Assembly: GCF_009601765.2 (NCBI RefSeq)
Contig: NZ_CP045699.1
Location: 2,108,001 to 2,172,000 of the forward strand
Source of the DNA: Vibrio algicola
Lineage (GTDB): Bacteria > Pseudomonadota > Gammaproteobacteria > Enterobacterales > Vibrionaceae
Length of the DNA: 64,000 bases
Reading direction: 5' to 3'
A model generated the notes under the pieces. The model saw only the letters and a list, made by a program, of their open reading frames with translations. It was not told the DNA's origin and made no database searches. This document shows, piece after piece, positions 22,586 through 63,152 of this stretch. Each line of letters starts with the position of its first letter. Positions within the stretch are counted from its first letter, which is position 1. The position numbers and the translations under genes are program-made.

Positions 22586-24344
22586 GAGGAATAGTTAACT
22601 TCTGACCCACCGCCAAACTATCAGAGCGCAAATTATTGGCTTTACGGATTTCGCTCACCTTGACGTTATATTTTTGTGCGATACCACTTAAATATTCACC
22701 ACTTTTTACTTGGTGCGTGACGGTCTTAGTCGATTTTGGCACCGCGATTTTAAGCTTCTGACCTAACTTTAGCGTATTGCTGCGCAAGTTGTTTTGTGCC
22801 TTAATTTGTCTGATCGATACATTGTATTTTTCAGCTATTTTACCTAAGTAATCCCCACGTTGAACCACATGAGTAATGTCTTGCGTACCGATTGACAACG
22901 AAGAAGCTTGAGTGCTTGAAGTGGAAGCCGTTGTGCTTGGTGCGGTTACTTTTAATTGCTGCCCCACCTTTAAGCTCGAGCTTTTTAAGTTATTCCACTG
23001 CATTAGATTGGCTGTGCTGATGTTGTATTTCTTAGCGATAACCGAAAGCGATTCACCACTTTTTACTTTGTGAGTGCCAGAAGAAGCATGATTAACCACC
23101 ATTGCTCCTTGTACTGGGTTATCTTTAAAGTATTGCTGAATAGCCTTAGATATAGCTCCTGAAAGTTGATTTTGATGATAGTTTTGCACCAATAACTTCT
23201 CTTCCGCAGGATTGGAAATAAAACCAGTTTCAACCAAGATTGATGGAATATCAGGAGACTTCAAAACCGCTAAACTGGCATAAACGGGTTTAGAGGTATG
23301 CATCCGTGTTACTTGACGCAATTGCTTGATCACATGCAGTGCTAGCTTGTTACCTTCAGTTTGTGAATAGCCAAATTGGAGATCGAGTACCGTTTGGCTG
23401 ACGTTTTTATCATGAGCATTTTTGGCTAGCAATAGACCACCACCGCCCAATAACTCAGATTGCTCTTCTTTTTTTACCACCCAACGACCAATTTCAGTAT
23501 TGGCTCGACGAGTACTTAATACGAACACCGACGCACCACGCGGGCCTGATGTGGTGTAACTATCAGCATGGATTGACACTAATAACAGCGCTTTATTCTT
23601 ACGTGCGATCTCTGAACGTTCATTTAAGTTAACGTAATAATCCCCTTTACGCGTCAATATCGCATGAATATTAGGGGTCTTCTTATTAAGATCATTCACC
23701 ACTTTTTTAGCGATCGCTAACGTGACGTTTTTCTCATATTTTCGGGTTGGGCCAATAGAGCCTGGATCTTTGCCTCCGTGCCCAGGATCTATCGCCACTA
23801 TAATTCGAGTTGGAGTTCTCGACACTGTACTCGGTATTGCTTGAGGTTTAGTCGCAGGTTTTATTACTGTTGGTTTAGCGACTACCGGCAAAGTATGGCT
23901 AAATTGCCCTGATTTTTGGTTGCTAACTGCCGCTGATCCATGTTTAAAATCCACCACCAAACGATGACCATATTGACCATTGGCGGTAGGGGCTAATTTA
24001 AACACTTCAGGATTTTGCTTCGATTTTAATTCAAACACTAACCGATAAGTTGAAGCAACCGGCGCGCCACTGCGACGAATTTTGGTCAAAACAGGGCTAT
24101 CGGTAACTTTGACGGGTAGTTTTGTTTTTAAACTGGTGTTTTTAATGTCCACGACTAAACGGTTAGGCCCAGAGAGGGTAAAATAACTAAAGGTGGGTTC
24201 ACTTCCCATGTCCATCACAACACGGGTATCGGTTGCTGAGGGCCATACACGAATAGTATTTAAAGAATTAGCCCATACGGTCGATGAAAAAGCCGCCAGT
24301 ATCATGACTAAAAAGAAAGTTTTTGCTTTAACTAATTTAATCAC
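22581..24344 (-). CDS. amiB: N-acetylmuramoyl-L-alanine amidase AmiB-type with three LysM domains
   Basis: 587-residue periplasmic cell-separation amidase. Order: signal peptide (about 1-25, ending VWA), AMIN septal-targeting domain (about 27-140), linker, amidase_3 zinc catalytic domain (about 180-410; [36 protein letters not shown]), then three LysM peptidoglycan-binding repeats (about 420-465, 488-532, 543-587). E. coli AmiB is shorter and lacks the three LysM repeats, which are the Vibrio form. Start is a GTG at 24344 overlapping the tsaE stop (GTGA). Confidence 0.95.
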
Positions 24345-24805
24345 AGCGTCAACTCGCTTAATAAAGATTGTCCATATTCATTATTGGCGGTCAACACCAC
24401 TTGTCTATGGGTTTCAATGTAGCGCAATTCAATATCTAAATCGGCCAGCGGCAAAATGCCCTCGCCCTTTTCAGGCCACTCAACCAAACAAATCGCATCT
24501 GGGGTAAAGTAATCTCGGATCCCCATAAACTCCAACTCTTCAGGATCGGCCAAGCGATACAAGTCAAAATGATAGACCTGCCATTTATCTAATATATAAG
24601 GTTCAACTAAGGTATACGTTGGACTTTTTACATTGCCTTGATGACCTAATGCTCGAACAAAACCACGACTGAATGTGGTTTTTCCAGCACCAAGATCACC
24701 ATGCAAATAAATCGTAGTTTGTTGTGAGCATAAATGGGCTAATTGAGTCCCTAAATCTATAGTAGCGGCTTCATCCATCAATAATGCTTGTTTGATTTTT
24801 GTCAT
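24341..24805 (-). CDS. tsaE: tRNA threonylcarbamoyladenosine ATPase TsaE
   Basis: 154-residue P-loop protein ([20 protein letters not shown]) with [11 protein letters not shown] and [21 protein letters not shown], all TsaE hallmarks. It partners TsaB and TsaD in making t6A37 on ANN-reading tRNAs; tsaD lies 30 kb away at 54801. The ATG at 24805 ([15 protein letters not shown]) matches the E. coli length and has an AAGAG site; ATG 24820 and TTG 24868 are alternatives without a good site. First gene of the leftward superoperon. Confidence 0.95.
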
Positions 24806-25172
24806 GTTACTCTTGCTCATCAAAAGGTAATGGTCTAACGCTATATACCCACCAACATAAAGCTTCAATTTCAGTGGGTATAAAAAGAGTTTAAATACAG
24901 TGTTAAGAGTAATATTCTCTTAAGCACGTCATTATTCTACATATTGCCAATAAATTCTAAACAAAGTGTCAGAATTTAACTCAATATCCGCTTTATTCTG
25001 CTATCTATACCCAAGTAAGGTCAAGATGCAGAATTAAGAGCACTCTGGCAAGAAGTGGCTCAAGTAAGATTGGCGAAAGAATATAATTAATAAATAACCA
25101 TTAAGAGCCATCGCAACCCTGGATTAGATTGGTTAAAATCTGCCCTCGATTATCACTTAAAAGCCAACCGCC
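24806..25172. other. tsaE-queG divergent gap with a small Vibrio-type repeat
   Basis: 367 bases between divergent genes. Position 25006-25031 carries TATACCCAAGTAAGGTCAAG, a sequence repeated almost exactly at 54027-54048. In E. coli nnr (yjeF) lies between queG and tsaE; no nnr frame is visible here. The rest is AT-rich and holds nothing I can name. Confidence 0.5.
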
Positions 25173-26291
25173 ATGAATTACACCGAACTTGCACAAAACA
25201 TCAAACAGTGGGGCCAAGAGCTTGGCTTTCAAAAAGTGGGGATCTGTGATGTCGATTTATCCGAACATGAAGCTCAACTGCAGCGCTGGTTAGATGCAGG
25301 TCACCATGGCAACATGGACTGGATGGCAAGACATGGCATGATGCGTGCGCGTCCGGCCGAACTTCACCCTGGCACAGTGCGAGTGATCAGCGTGCGAATG
25401 GATTACCTTCCACCGCAAGCCCAGTTTGCCGCCAACCTTGCCGATCCTACCCAAGCTTATATTAGTCGTTACTCATTAGGTCGTGACTATCATAAATTAA
25501 TGCGTAACCAACTGAAAAAGCTCGGTCAGCGTATTGAACAAGAAGTTGGCGCTTTTGGTTATCGCCCATTCGTAGATTCCGCACCTATTTTAGAACGTCC
25601 ATTAGCTCAAAAAGCCGGACTTGGTTGGACAGGAAAACACTCGCTTATTCTTGATAAAGATAAAGGCTCTTGGTTTTTCTTAGGTGAACTACTGATTGAT
25701 CTTCCTCTTCCAGTTGATGAACCGCAGAGCAATCAATGTGGAAAATGTACCGCTTGTATCACCTCTTGCCCGACTGGGGCGATATTAAGTGATGGCGTGG
25801 TGGATGCTCGTCTATGTATTTCTTATCTCACCATTGAGTTTGATGGCGTGATCCCAGAAGAGTTACGCAGCAAGATGGGTAATCGAATTTATGGTTGTGA
25901 TGATTGCCAGTTAGTTTGCCCGTGGAACCGTGAAGGCGATATTACCGAACAAGACAGTTTCCATCGACGCCCTATATTTAATGACAGTAATCTCATCGGA
26001 TTATTTACATGGGACGAAGCGGCTTTCCTAAAAAATATGGAAGGCTCTGCTATTCGCCGAATTGGTCATATTCAATGGCTAAGAAATATCGCGATTGCTT
26101 TAGGCAATGCCCCTTATCAGAACAAAATTTATGACGCCTTAAATGCAAGGTTAGGGTTAAATGCGCTATTAGATGTTCATATCCATTGGGCTTTAGAGCA
26201 GCAAGACAACAAAAAAGAAGTCGCGGTAAGAAACATTAAATTGGAGCGGTTAGTCAGAATTATTGAGAAAGGTTTACCGCGCGATGCTTAA
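25173..26291 (+). CDS. queG: Epoxyqueuosine reductase QueG
   Basis: 372-residue cobalamin- and Fe-S-dependent enzyme performing the last step of queuosine synthesis, reducing epoxyqueuosine in tRNA. The catalytic aspartate is in RPFVDSAP (D135). Two [4Fe-4S] sites are visible: C189/C192/C195/C199 (CGKCTACITSC) and C215 with C242/C245/C249 (CDDCQLVCPW). Length fits the family (about 370). Transcribed away from tsaE and toward the DnaA-box tract and tRNA array. Confidence 0.96.
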   Translation: MNYTELAQNIKQWGQELGFQKVGICDVDLSEHEAQLQRWLDAGHHGNMDWMARHGMMRARPAELHPGTVRVISVRMDYLPPQAQFAANLADPTQAYISRYSLGRDYHKLMRNQLKKLGQRIEQEVGAFGYRPFVDSAPILERPLAQKAGLGWTGKHSLILDKDKGSWFFLGELLIDLPLPVDEPQSNQCGKCTACITSCPTGAILSDGVVDARLCISYLTIEFDGVIPEELRSKMGNRIYGCDDCQLVCPWNREGDITEQDSFHRRPIFNDSNLIGLFTWDEAAFLKNMEGSAIRRIGHIQWLRNIAIALGNAPYQNKIYDALNARLGLNALLDVHIHWALEQQDNKKEVAVRNIKLERLVRIIEKGLPRDA

Positions 26292-26316: not shown

Positions 26317-26625
26317 GATCTCAAAAAAAATTGTAATGTGGAAAAAGTATCAAGATAGGCAACGTGACAAGGTGTAACGAAAAGTTAAACACATTCAAAT
26401 TTCATGATAAAGATCAAGTAAAAATTAAATAAAGATCTTTTATTGAACCTGATCTTTTATACAGTTACTTTTTTTTTAATATAAAAAACAATAGCTTATG
26501 ATGATTTAATTCGCTTTTTAATTTATTAAAAACCAGAAAGATCCAAATGAATATCGAAATATCAACGGCTAAAAAACAACTTACACACCAAGTTATCCAC
26601 AAAAATCAATCTGTGGATAAACTTG
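26317..26625. other. Candidate DnaA-binding locus (datA-like) between queG and the tRNA-Gly array
   Basis: This tract has two perfect DnaA boxes in inverted orientation, TTATCCACA at 26593-26601 and TGTGGATAA at 26612-26620, ten bases apart. Upstream are five GATC sites within 227 bases (26317, 26412, 26434, 26451, 26540) and a direct repeat GATCTTTTAT (26434-26443, 26451-26460) in very AT-rich DNA. An IHF-like site TATCAACGGCTAA, one mismatch from consensus, is at 26560-26572. E. coli datA, the DnaA-ATP titration/hydrolysis site, lies in the same neighbourhood, between queG and glyVXY. Sequence features are seen; function is inferred from position and boxes. Confidence 0.5.
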
Positions 26626-26672
26626 TAGATAGCTTTTTCATCACCAATAAAAACGGTGCTTACAGCGGGTAA
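26547..26672 (+). CDS. Possible 41-residue small ORF overlapping the DnaA boxes
   Basis: ATG at 26547 to TAA at 26672, encoding a mildly basic 41-residue peptide beginning MNIEISTAKKQLTHQVIHKN and ending KNGAYSG. An AGAAAG stretch lies a few bases upstream. It contains both DnaA boxes, so it may be a chance frame in a regulatory tract or the remains of a gene. I recognise no family. Confidence 0.2.
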   Translation: MNIEISTAKKQLTHQVIHKNQSVDKLVDSFFITNKNGAYSG

Positions 26673-26810
26673 TCGTTTTGAGAGTATGACAACTTGAGAA
26701 GTGACACTAACATCAAGGTAAGGAGTCAAACTAAAAAGAGCTATAATCCATTAATTATGGATTAACGATGAAATCGATTCGCGGTATGCAAATCACTATA
26801 TTGCAGGGAA

Positions 26811-26846
26811 TAAAAAACGATCTCAGATGAGATCGTTTTTTATTTT
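26811..26846. terminator. Terminator of the tRNA array
   Basis: CGATCTC-AGAT-GAGATCG flanked by A6 and T6 runs. Read leftward it closes the tRNA operon; it also works for rightward transcripts from queG. Confidence 0.9.
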
Positions 26847-26850
26847 TAAT

Positions 26851-26954
26851 TAGGCTACACGAGGTTCCTGCTTCTCTTTAAGCAAAGAGGCAAGGCTTAG
26901 GTGTGACCTCAACCTTGGCAAAGATGCGCTCTGCCACAAGCATGTCGTGTTTCG
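26851..26954 (-). pseudogene. tRNA-Gly-like degenerate element 1
   Basis: The most diverged of four tRNA-Gly-derived elements. It keeps the anticodon-arm stretch TTTGCCAAGGTTGAGG but replaces the T-arm with a longer insert (about 30 bases) containing CTCTTTGCTTAAAGAG, itself a perfect small hairpin. The 3' end lacks an intact CCA. It lies last in the array, before the terminator. Confidence 0.7.
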
Positions 26955-26963
26955 TTTACAAAT

Positions 26964-27056
26964 TGGAGCGACACACGAGGCTCCCTGATCTTCAAGGTAT
27001 TGGCGTGACCTCAACCTTGACAAGGGTGCGCTTTGCCACAAGCGCGTCGTGTTTCG
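26964..27056 (-). pseudogene. tRNA-Gly-like degenerate element 2
   Basis: About 93 bases, nine bases after tRNA-Gly 1. Retains a GTC-containing anticodon arm (CCTTGTCAAGG instead of GCC), the 3' end GTGTCGCTCCA and a GCGC/GCGC D-stem. The normal T-arm is interrupted by about 17 extra bases, and the 5' end is rewritten as CGAAACACGA, which pairs with the 3' TCGTGTGTCG. Confidence 0.75.
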
Positions 27057-27065
27057 TTTACAAAT

Positions 27066-28727: not shown

Positions 28728-29291
28728 TTAGATTTTAAACACTGTTGAACGGTAATATTTCAATTCAGCAATCGACTCACGGATGTCATCTAATGCTAAA
28801 TGACTGCCACTTTTAGAGAAACCCTCTAAAGTTTCTGGCTGCCAGCGGCGTGTTAATTCTTTAATCGTGCTGACATCAAGGTAGCGATAATGGAAGTATT
28901 CTTCCAGCAATGGCATGTGTTTATATAAAAAACGACGGTCTTGACCAATGCTATTACCACAAATTGGTGATTTCCCTTTTGGTACCCATTGCTCTAAAAA
29001 GGCAATAGTTTGAGCAATTGCATCATCTTCTGTCACAGTAGTCTCTTGCACACGCTTCACTAATCCACTGTTAGTATGGGTGTTAGTGCACCAATCATCC
29101 ATTTTTGCCAATTCTTGTTCCGATTGATGGATAGCCAGCATTGGACCTTCAGCTAAAATATTTAATTCGCTATCGGTAACAATCGAAGCGATTTCGATGA
29201 TTTTATGCGTTTCTGGATCCAATCCAGTCATTTCAAGATCAACCCAAATTAAGTTATCTTGATGAAACTTAGGATTTTGAGACTGTGTCAT
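28728..29291 (-). CDS. orn: Oligoribonuclease
   Basis: 187-residue DEDDh 3'-5' exoribonuclease that finishes RNA decay by cutting 2-5-mers and pGpG. Motifs: [23 protein letters not shown] (ExoI, in part), [17 protein letters not shown] (ExoII) and [18 protein letters not shown] with the catalytic His and Asp (ExoIII). Divergent from rsgA, the usual arrangement, and next to the tRNA-Gly genes as in E. coli. Confidence 0.97.
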
Positions 29292-62763: not shown

Positions 62764-62921
62764 GGTAAAGCTCCTGTAGGTACCAGAATCAGGGCTATTG
62801 CAGAAGGGGTAAGACAGTGCCATGCATTTTAAATCGCGCAAGCAAGGTCAAACTCACTTAGTAAAATACTAAATGTCATACCCGTCATCGTGAAGTATTA
62901 ACTTCAACGCAACGCGTATAT

Positions 62922-63068
62922 TTATCCTCTCCCATCCAGACTATCACTGTCGGCTCTGGGTTCTCACCAGATCTGCTGACCTTGATCATGAGATCAAGCG
63001 CTCGCGGGCTGATAACGTCGTATTGCGCTATATACCGCCGGTGGGGAATTGCGCCCCGCCCTGAGAAT
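62922..63068 (-). ncRNA. FMN riboswitch (RFN element) upstream of ribB
   Basis: On the minus strand the region opens with CTCAGGGCGGGG and CAATTCCCCACCGGCGGTA, continues with CAGCCCGCGAGC, a variable hairpin CTTGATCTCATGATCAAG, then GTCAGCAGATCTGGTG, GAACCCAGAGCCGACAGT and a closing TCTGGATGGGAGAG. These are the conserved RFN blocks in order. FMN binding should shut off ribB; about 158 bases of expression platform lie between it and the start. Confidence 0.95.
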
Positions 63069-63152
63069 AATTAATAAAATTGTTAACACCTAATGGTGTG
63101 GTTCAATAGTATTACAGCCTCAAAATAAAATCTATCTCATAAATCGCAAACA

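Follow-up and report, generated by a model that had tools for sequence, protein, structure and literature searches.

A probable Vibrionaceae counterpart of the DnaA-inactivating site datA in the gap between queG and the tRNA-Gly genes

Does the non-coding gap between queG and the tRNA-Gly genes of Vibrio algicola hold a counterpart of datA, the site whose deletion in Escherichia coli raises the number of origins per mass and disturbs synchrony? The E. coli site is characterized by two strong DnaA boxes (boxes 2 and 3) and a weak box 7, which share one direction and follow the order 7-2-IBS-3 from the tRNA side; Kasho and Katayama 2013 and Kasho et al. 2017 are reportedly the papers that define it. 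A preliminary description of the V. algicola gap had proposed a datA-like DnaA reservoir, functionally analogous to datA. We analysed the gap within a window of 64,000 nucleotides (contig NZ_CP045699.1, positions 2,108,001 to 2,172,000), and compared it with the corresponding region of other genomes.

Two transcription units converge on the gap holding the site: queG (25173–26291, + strand) on one side and a tRNA-Gly/fMet array (from 27066, − strand) on the other. The complete order is tsaE (24341–24868, −), queG, gap, tRNA-Gly/fMet array and orn (28728–29291, −), with tRNAs called by ARAGORN and protein names taken from an earlier reader and from our reading of the open reading frames. Coordinates and strands fit the flanking order described before. 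Because the gap contains the downstream ends of two convergent units, it includes no promoter of either neighbour, and the promoter of a neighbouring gene is ruled out as an explanation. The tRNA genes point at the site with a likely terminator in between. The terminator is a hairpin with a T run (26809–26844, −) that separates the first tRNA from the site, lying upstream of the latter in the tRNA direction. It folds at −20.3 kcal/mol (z = −8.5), which 0 of 200 shuffles equalled, and is missing from the output of a consensus terminator scan. From the hairpin to the first intact tRNA-Gly gene, degenerate tRNA-Gly-like copies are seen by eye (26860–27060). Elsewhere in the window, an FMN riboswitch is located at 62920–63072 (115.9 bits).

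The elements of the site are arranged from the queG side as box 3 (26337), an IHF-like site (26486), two inverted boxes (26593 and 26612) and a weak box (26624). The counterpart of datA box 3, TTTTCCACA (26337–26345, −), matches the consensus; it lies inside the segment previously described and was absent from that description. The arm on the queG side contains a weak DnaA box TTAAACACA (26385–26393, +), at a place where TTAANCACA is conserved family-wide. The IHF-like site AAACAATAGCTTA (26486–26498, +) agrees with WATCAANNNNTTR at 8 of 9 consensus positions and is preceded by an A/T tract; it is 149 bases from box 3 on the queG side and 126 from box 2, and the genome contains ihfA. The two inverted consensus boxes TTATCCACA occupy exactly the positions given before: the one on the − strand (26612–26620) is the counterpart of datA box 2, and the other (26593–26601, +) is its inverted partner. 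Both are flanked by weaker sequences, namely TTACACACC (26581–26589, +), which was judged by eye as box-like and ends 3 bases before the inverted box, and a weak box beside box 2 (26624–26632, −; TGTAGATAG on the + strand), a drifted match that represents the counterpart of datA box 7. In addition, five GATC sites within 227 bases (26317, 26412, 26434, 26451 and 26540) and a direct repeat of GATCTTTTAT at 26434 and 26451 were found as described. Three of the GATC sites (26412–26415, 26434–26437 and 26540–26543; offsets −200, −178 and −72 from box 2) are at family-wide positions.

When the 450 bases after queG were dinucleotide-shuffled 2000 times, this density of elements was rarely or never reached: the mean was 0.10 boxes, three boxes and the inverted pair never arose, and five GATC sites were reached in 0.25%. 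Across the whole 64 kb window, TTWTNCACA is without enrichment (8 found versus 8.9 expected). The 3.51 Mb genome contains 46 copies of TTATCCACA, and the queG-adjacent site is the sole occurrence of the convergent pair TTATCCACA N5-25 TGTGGATAA in the 3.51 Mb searched. Two other close TTATCCACA pairs are found in the genome, at G000:C1:38731-38917 and C1:1991769-1991895.

Conservation of the boxes in related genomes had been set beforehand as a test of the preliminary description, and the site passed it. A first set of 80 named queG loci was scanned in the region after queG, and a family-wide search of Vibrionaceae detected queG in 156 of 159 genomes. The 121 loci from this search (21 + 100 stretches) and 40 earlier ones give 161 Vibrionaceae loci, 124 of them distinct, and the inverted pair together with box 3 is present in 120 of the 124; the motifs were derived from the same sequences as were counted, and related genomes are not independent. 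Box 3 is located 262–281 bases before box 2 in all 120 pair-bearing loci, reading TGTGGAAAA in 115 and TGTGGACAA in 5 on the + strand. The footprint of the family runs from TGTGGAAAA over 48 bases to TTAANCACA, GATC sites, the IHF-like site and a further GATC to the box pair, and ends with TTATCCACA or TTACCCACA, 9–10 bases and TGTGGATAA, mostly followed by [CG]TCTGT. Particularly, TTAANCACA starts exactly 48 bases past box 3 in 99 of 120 loci, and at 46–51 in 110. The inverted partner is TTATCCACA in 74 loci, TTACCCACA in 44 and TTATTCACA in 2, separated from box 2 by 19 bases (103 loci) or 18 (17 loci). Box 2 itself is TGTGGATAA in 118 of 120 Vibrionaceae loci, and NTCTGT follows it in 110, with drifted forms in the window and its nearest kin. 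At the datA site of the close kin (L175–L178), these extensions include ACTTGT, TTTGT and ATCTGT.

The pair has a mirrored layout. The 12-base spacing between box 2 and the weak box is repeated by the inverted strong box and the box-like sequence 12 bases before it, whose commonest forms are TAATCAACC (19 of 120 loci), TTATCAACC (16) and TTACCCACC (14). GATC sites also keep their places relative to box 2, at −202 to −196 in 63, −180 to −174 in 80 and −74 to −68 in 64 of the 120 loci, versus 0, 2 and 6 of 120 for three other windows of equal width. In the 450 bases after queG, 120 GATC sites are observed versus 45 expected in 38 Vibrionaceae loci, and 55 versus 56 in 41 enteric-type loci. As a guess, GATC at fixed places may add control by Dam/SeqA. 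The four loci that miss the pattern differ from one another: one has the pair with box 2 altered to TGTGGACAA (L332), one keeps TGTGTATAACTCTGT in a rearranged setting (L337), one, with tRNA genes within its stretch, belongs to a genome of 74% completeness (L320), and one has nothing recognisable in its stretch (L273).

The inverted boxes fold as RNA (z = −4.0 on the + strand and −3.2 on the − strand), and an open frame of 41 codons from 26547 spans them in the window. An RNA hairpin or a small protein could accordingly be the conserved entity and the boxes its by-product, which we regard as a nearly negligible prospect. In 44 of 120 loci the partner is TTACCCACA, with which box 2 TGTGGATAA loses one pair; this one-sided change, which abolishes full pairing, speaks against the RNA hairpin, and no Rfam match reaches the gathering score at the site. 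The frame is not kept either, as a start codon is in frame in only 7 of 38 distinct loci (window included), giving 24–47 codons. Both the hairpin and the small open reading frame were therefore rejected.

The corresponding gap of enteric bacteria contains the same parts at other distances. Our enteric-type set comprises 41 loci: all 36 enteric loci of the first 80, two of five from family f19, and three from families f5 and f11, which were grouped with the enterics because of their enteric box geometry. Boxes 3 and 2 are 159–165 bases apart in all 41 loci. Box 2 is TGTGGATAA and is followed by NTCTGT in every one of them, and the sixth base of box 3 is G in three (L036, L039 and L049). The inverted pair was found in none of the 41, and neither was a TTAANCACA-type weak box at the Vibrionaceae place. 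In the gap of E. coli strain E69 (L042), counted from the queG stop, TGTGAATAA is located at 14, TATCAACACGTTA at 107, TGTGGATAA at 176 and TGTTTACAA at 188. The naming of these boxes is our own assignment, guided by excerpts of PMC5742627 and PMC10950094, the latter of which places box 2 of datA between the tRNA operon and the IBS. By this assignment, box 3 to box 7 measures 183 bp in E69, equal to the minimal datA length given in the excerpted text of PMC5742627.

In 44 loci from other families, the 450 bases following queG contain neither of the two geometries. This set excludes L135, a second copy of the Vibrio locus L176 that has the pair and three boxes, and L070, which offers just 377 bases after queG and no box there; L121 likewise has no box. 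Some of the 44 have tRNA-Gly near queG (L056, L073, L076 and L166), indicating that the neighbourhood alone brings no boxes.

The two groups share the placement of the IHF-like site relative to the boxes, with an equal offset from their midpoint. In our scan, WATCAANNNNTTR was scored at every position between boxes 3 and 2 and the scores were sorted by a − b, where a is the distance from box 3 to the IHF-like site and b that from the IHF-like site to box 2. The best 2-bp bin is 22–23 in 38 distinct Vibrionaceae loci (mean 7.11 of 9) and likewise in the 41 enteric-type loci (mean 7.07 of 9), and the top bin means among 300 single-base shuffles are 4.45 and 4.39, respectively. The commonest arms (a,b) are (92,69) among enteric-type loci, and (149,126) and (152,129) among Vibrionaceae, where each arm is about 57 bp longer; a − b is mostly 22–25 bp in both groups. 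Matches of 8–9 occur at 35 places in 30 of 41 enteric-type loci; 27 of these places have a − b of 17–29, all 27 at 22–25, and the other 8 lie elsewhere in the interval. The Vibrionaceae have such matches at 131 places in 91 of 120 loci, with 79 places (in 79 loci) at a − b of 10–36, of which 74 are at 22–25 and 5 at 14, and 52 places elsewhere in the interval. No match of at least 8 exists in 29 of the 120 Vibrionaceae loci and in 11 of the 41 enteric-type ones; 12 of the remaining 91 Vibrionaceae loci have a strong match elsewhere only. Two loci with enteric box geometry (L150 and L151) contain no IHF-like sequence at the expected place.

Independent change of the two arms would give equal variances of a − b and a + b. 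The variance of a − b is 0.51 versus 8.53 for a + b at 26 Vibrionaceae places taken from 17–29, a range that itself limits a − b, and 5.16 versus 22.85 (r = 0.73) at the 79 places from 10–36. Within Vibrionaceae the two arms mostly vary in step, and the paired lengths found are (147,124), (148,125), (149,126), (150,127), (151,128) and (152,129). Since related genomes are not independent, the arm claim rests on the offset shared by two groups and on these several paired lengths. Six loci with a box distance of 262 bases (L010 from V. splendidus, L011 from V. tasmaniensis, L137, L249, L254 and L257) form a group in which 10–11 bp, about one helix turn, are lost from the queG-side arm. Five of the six have a strong IHF match with arms (138,124), a difference of 14 that breaks the rule, and in L010 and L011 a second place scores equally for IHF.

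Both spacings are reported to matter in E. coli datA (PMC4585315, in excerpt). The 57-bp step between the groups corresponds to 5.4 turns, a non-integer, so that the helix face relative to IHF differs between them; equal arm changes would preserve the relation of box 2 to box 3, not their relation to IHF. We tentatively propose, at somewhat less than even chances, that the selected property of datA is the placement of boxes 2 and 3 at matched distances from the IHF bend, with no absolute spacing. The hydrolysis complex would then be a two-oligomer contact across the apex of the bend that predates the split of Vibrionaceae and enterics, and the Vibrionaceae would later have added the mirror pair and perhaps a Dam/SeqA layer. 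The arms would be free to lengthen or shorten if they do so equally, as by about 57 bp between the groups and 1–3 bp within Vibrionaceae, or alternatively one arm might shift by about one helix turn, as in the distance-262 group. The bent structure could be an IHF-bent hairpin or a plectoneme.

The site is also fairly close to the origin. In V. algicola, oriC lies between mnmG and a frame read as mioC, just upstream of mnmG (approximately C1:2,511,300–2,511,650), with DnaA boxes in the region at 2,511,558 and 2,511,631. From the site (2,134,6xx), the distance is 377 kb on a contig of 2,518,765 bases, or, assuming a circular contig, 0.30 of the replichore. For five further near-complete genomes, with oriC taken as beside mnmG, the value is 0.17 (G065, G099 and G080), 0.22 (G010) and 0.28 (G126). 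The side of oriC varies: the site is on the mnmG side in V. algicola, G239, G126 and G010, and on the other side in G065, G099 and G080. For E. coli, the positions 84.6 and 94.6 min given in an excerpt of PMC4585315 translate into 0.20 of the replichore.

Taken together, the site is probably the Vibrionaceae counterpart of datA, acting by IHF-dependent DnaA-ATP hydrolysis, to which we assign a probability of roughly three in four. Its observed basis comprises element order, direction, conservation, the arm rule, the gene neighbourhood and the distance to oriC. From the same parts in the same order as in E. coli datA we infer the same action, including protein binding, looping, hydrolysis and control by tRNA transcription. 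After initiation, IHF would bind at 26486–26498 and bend the DNA sharply, so that the DnaA-ATP bound at box 2 and its weak neighbour would come to lie beside the DnaA-ATP at box 3. ATP hydrolysis in the oligomer formed across the bend would then prevent refiring of oriC. An IHF bend that could join DnaA on boxes 2 and 3 and lead to DnaA-ATP hydrolysis is described for E. coli in the excerpted PMC5742627. Before initiation, transcription running on from the tRNA array may prevent IHF from binding; in E. coli, such read-through is reported to reduce IHF binding (excerpt of PMC10950094). The equal arms would fit a contact across the apex of the IHF-bent loop. Vibrionaceae would also have gained a mirrored copy of box 2 with its weak neighbour, as well as the GATC sites at fixed places.

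The boxes could instead titrate DnaA, soaking it up as the region is copied early, without hydrolysis and with IHF merely aiding binding. Titration was the first view of datA, and three consensus boxes with several weak ones, fairly near oriC, would suit it. Yet titration needs no fixed order, direction or arm rule, all of which are kept, and two strong boxes among 46 in the genome make a small sink; we hold it to be improbable. The reservoir of the preliminary description belongs to this older view, and a site of IHF-dependent DnaA-ATP hydrolysis would be the better reading. The datA-like character stands through the shared element order, direction and IHF offset, which give sequence-level support to a functional analogue of datA. 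A roadblock is a further alternative, in which the site stops tRNA transcription running antisense into queG and DnaA is merely a convenient DNA-binding protein. The site does lie in the path of tRNA read-through, and substitution of DnaA box 2 raised read-through in E. coli (PMC10950094, in excerpt). In the window, however, the strong hairpin with its T run precedes the site in that direction, and a roadblock accounts for neither box 3 nor the IHF offset, which makes it very unlikely.

The comparison suggests that the proposed DnaA brake would predate the gut bacteria that first revealed it. The simplest reading would be a single origin preceding the divergence of Vibrionaceae and enterics, with absence or loss of the site in other lineages. 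In a first queG tree (80 rows, thinned), the two groups stand apart with weak support and three changes of state, and absolute spacings and the inverted box differ between them, as would be expected if the two sites had independent origins within one gap and came to share their architecture by convergence. We consider such convergence unlikely, if still worth weighing: the gap, order, direction, arm difference and the run TGTGGATAA[CG]TCTGT are shared, although the run also occurs at other loci and thus alone proves no descent. Moreover, a second queG tree from a thinned set of 67 rows, in which five long-branch rows and L142 are among those omitted, requires two changes; the constraint holding both groups together scores slightly above the free search and is not rejected (p-AU 0.644, log-likelihood 9.57 higher). 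The queG tree was rejected for dating the site, its support being too weak.

The run TGTGGATAA[CG]TCTGT is present in 263 of 394 genomes of the order, with 0 hits for a reversed-pattern control among the matches listed. Among 31 other genomes of the window's genus, 26 have 3–5 copies and one has two; the window's genome, G083, G209, G229 and G239 have none. With so many copies in the genus, the run appears as a general DnaA module and not a datA tag, and was rejected as a datA-only hallmark. Other copies in Vibrio genomes (L201–L217) are possibly further DnaA-controlled sites; those of G065 are near frames with ALAD, PAPS-reductase, sigma-70/rhodanese and endonuclease/exonuclease domains. In family f9 (Pasteurellaceae as a guess), none of 14 genomes chosen for the run has a box at datA distance, and the queG matches obtained include no f9 genome. 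The run is single-copy there (L187–L200), and tRNA-Asn is located 191–241 bases away in 6 of 14.

If the proposed action holds, a non-coding site that actively shuts down DnaA is not confined to enterics and has been kept across Vibrionaceae, a family with two chromosomes in which the timing of chromosome 1 sets that of chromosome 2. Under the equal-arm rule, the importance of spacing would become a matter of geometry: the site is predicted to withstand matched insertions in the two arms but to fail with an insertion in one. No account of datA in Vibrio turned up in the literature searched, partly as excerpts and outside the two papers defining datA.

Among known systems, DARS1 and DARS2 are also non-coding clusters of DnaA boxes, and DARS2, composed of a three-box core, IBS1-2 and Fis sites 2-3, shares the use of IHF. 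V. cholerae reportedly has DARS-like sequences (excerpts of PMC6090056 and PMC8682772), one of them between uvrB and mutH (PMC6090056, in excerpt), whereas the present site is flanked by queG and tRNA genes. On V. cholerae chromosome 2, the RctB sites have been compared with datA as extra initiator-binding sites near the origin that restrain re-initiation (excerpt of PMC3937223). In contrast to the present site, which has DnaA boxes and is located on the oriC contig, they bind RctB and act on chromosome 2.

E. coli datA differs from the V. algicola site mainly in spacing. Box 3 to the weak box spans 296 bp here versus 183, so that the 183-bp minimal region of E. coli is not matched here, and box 3 to box 2 spans 275 versus about 161 bp in E. 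coli (162 in strain E69). In addition, box 3 is TTTTCCACA here, and Vibrionaceae have an inverted strong box and a weak box-like sequence beside box 2, a weak TTAANCACA box in the queG-side arm and an excess of GATC. Because of this spacing, we call the site a counterpart and a variant, not an E. coli-type datA. Judged from its letters, it is a variant that family-wide conservation and the equal-arm rule lift above annotation. It shares with E. coli datA the gap between queG and tRNA-Gly genes that point at the site, consensus boxes 3 (−) and 2 (−) with a single IHF-like site (+) at a conserved place between them, the identical order and direction up to box 7 (−), here as a weak, drifted match, fair proximity to oriC (0.30 versus 0.20 of the replichore), and an arm difference that agrees within 1–2 bp.
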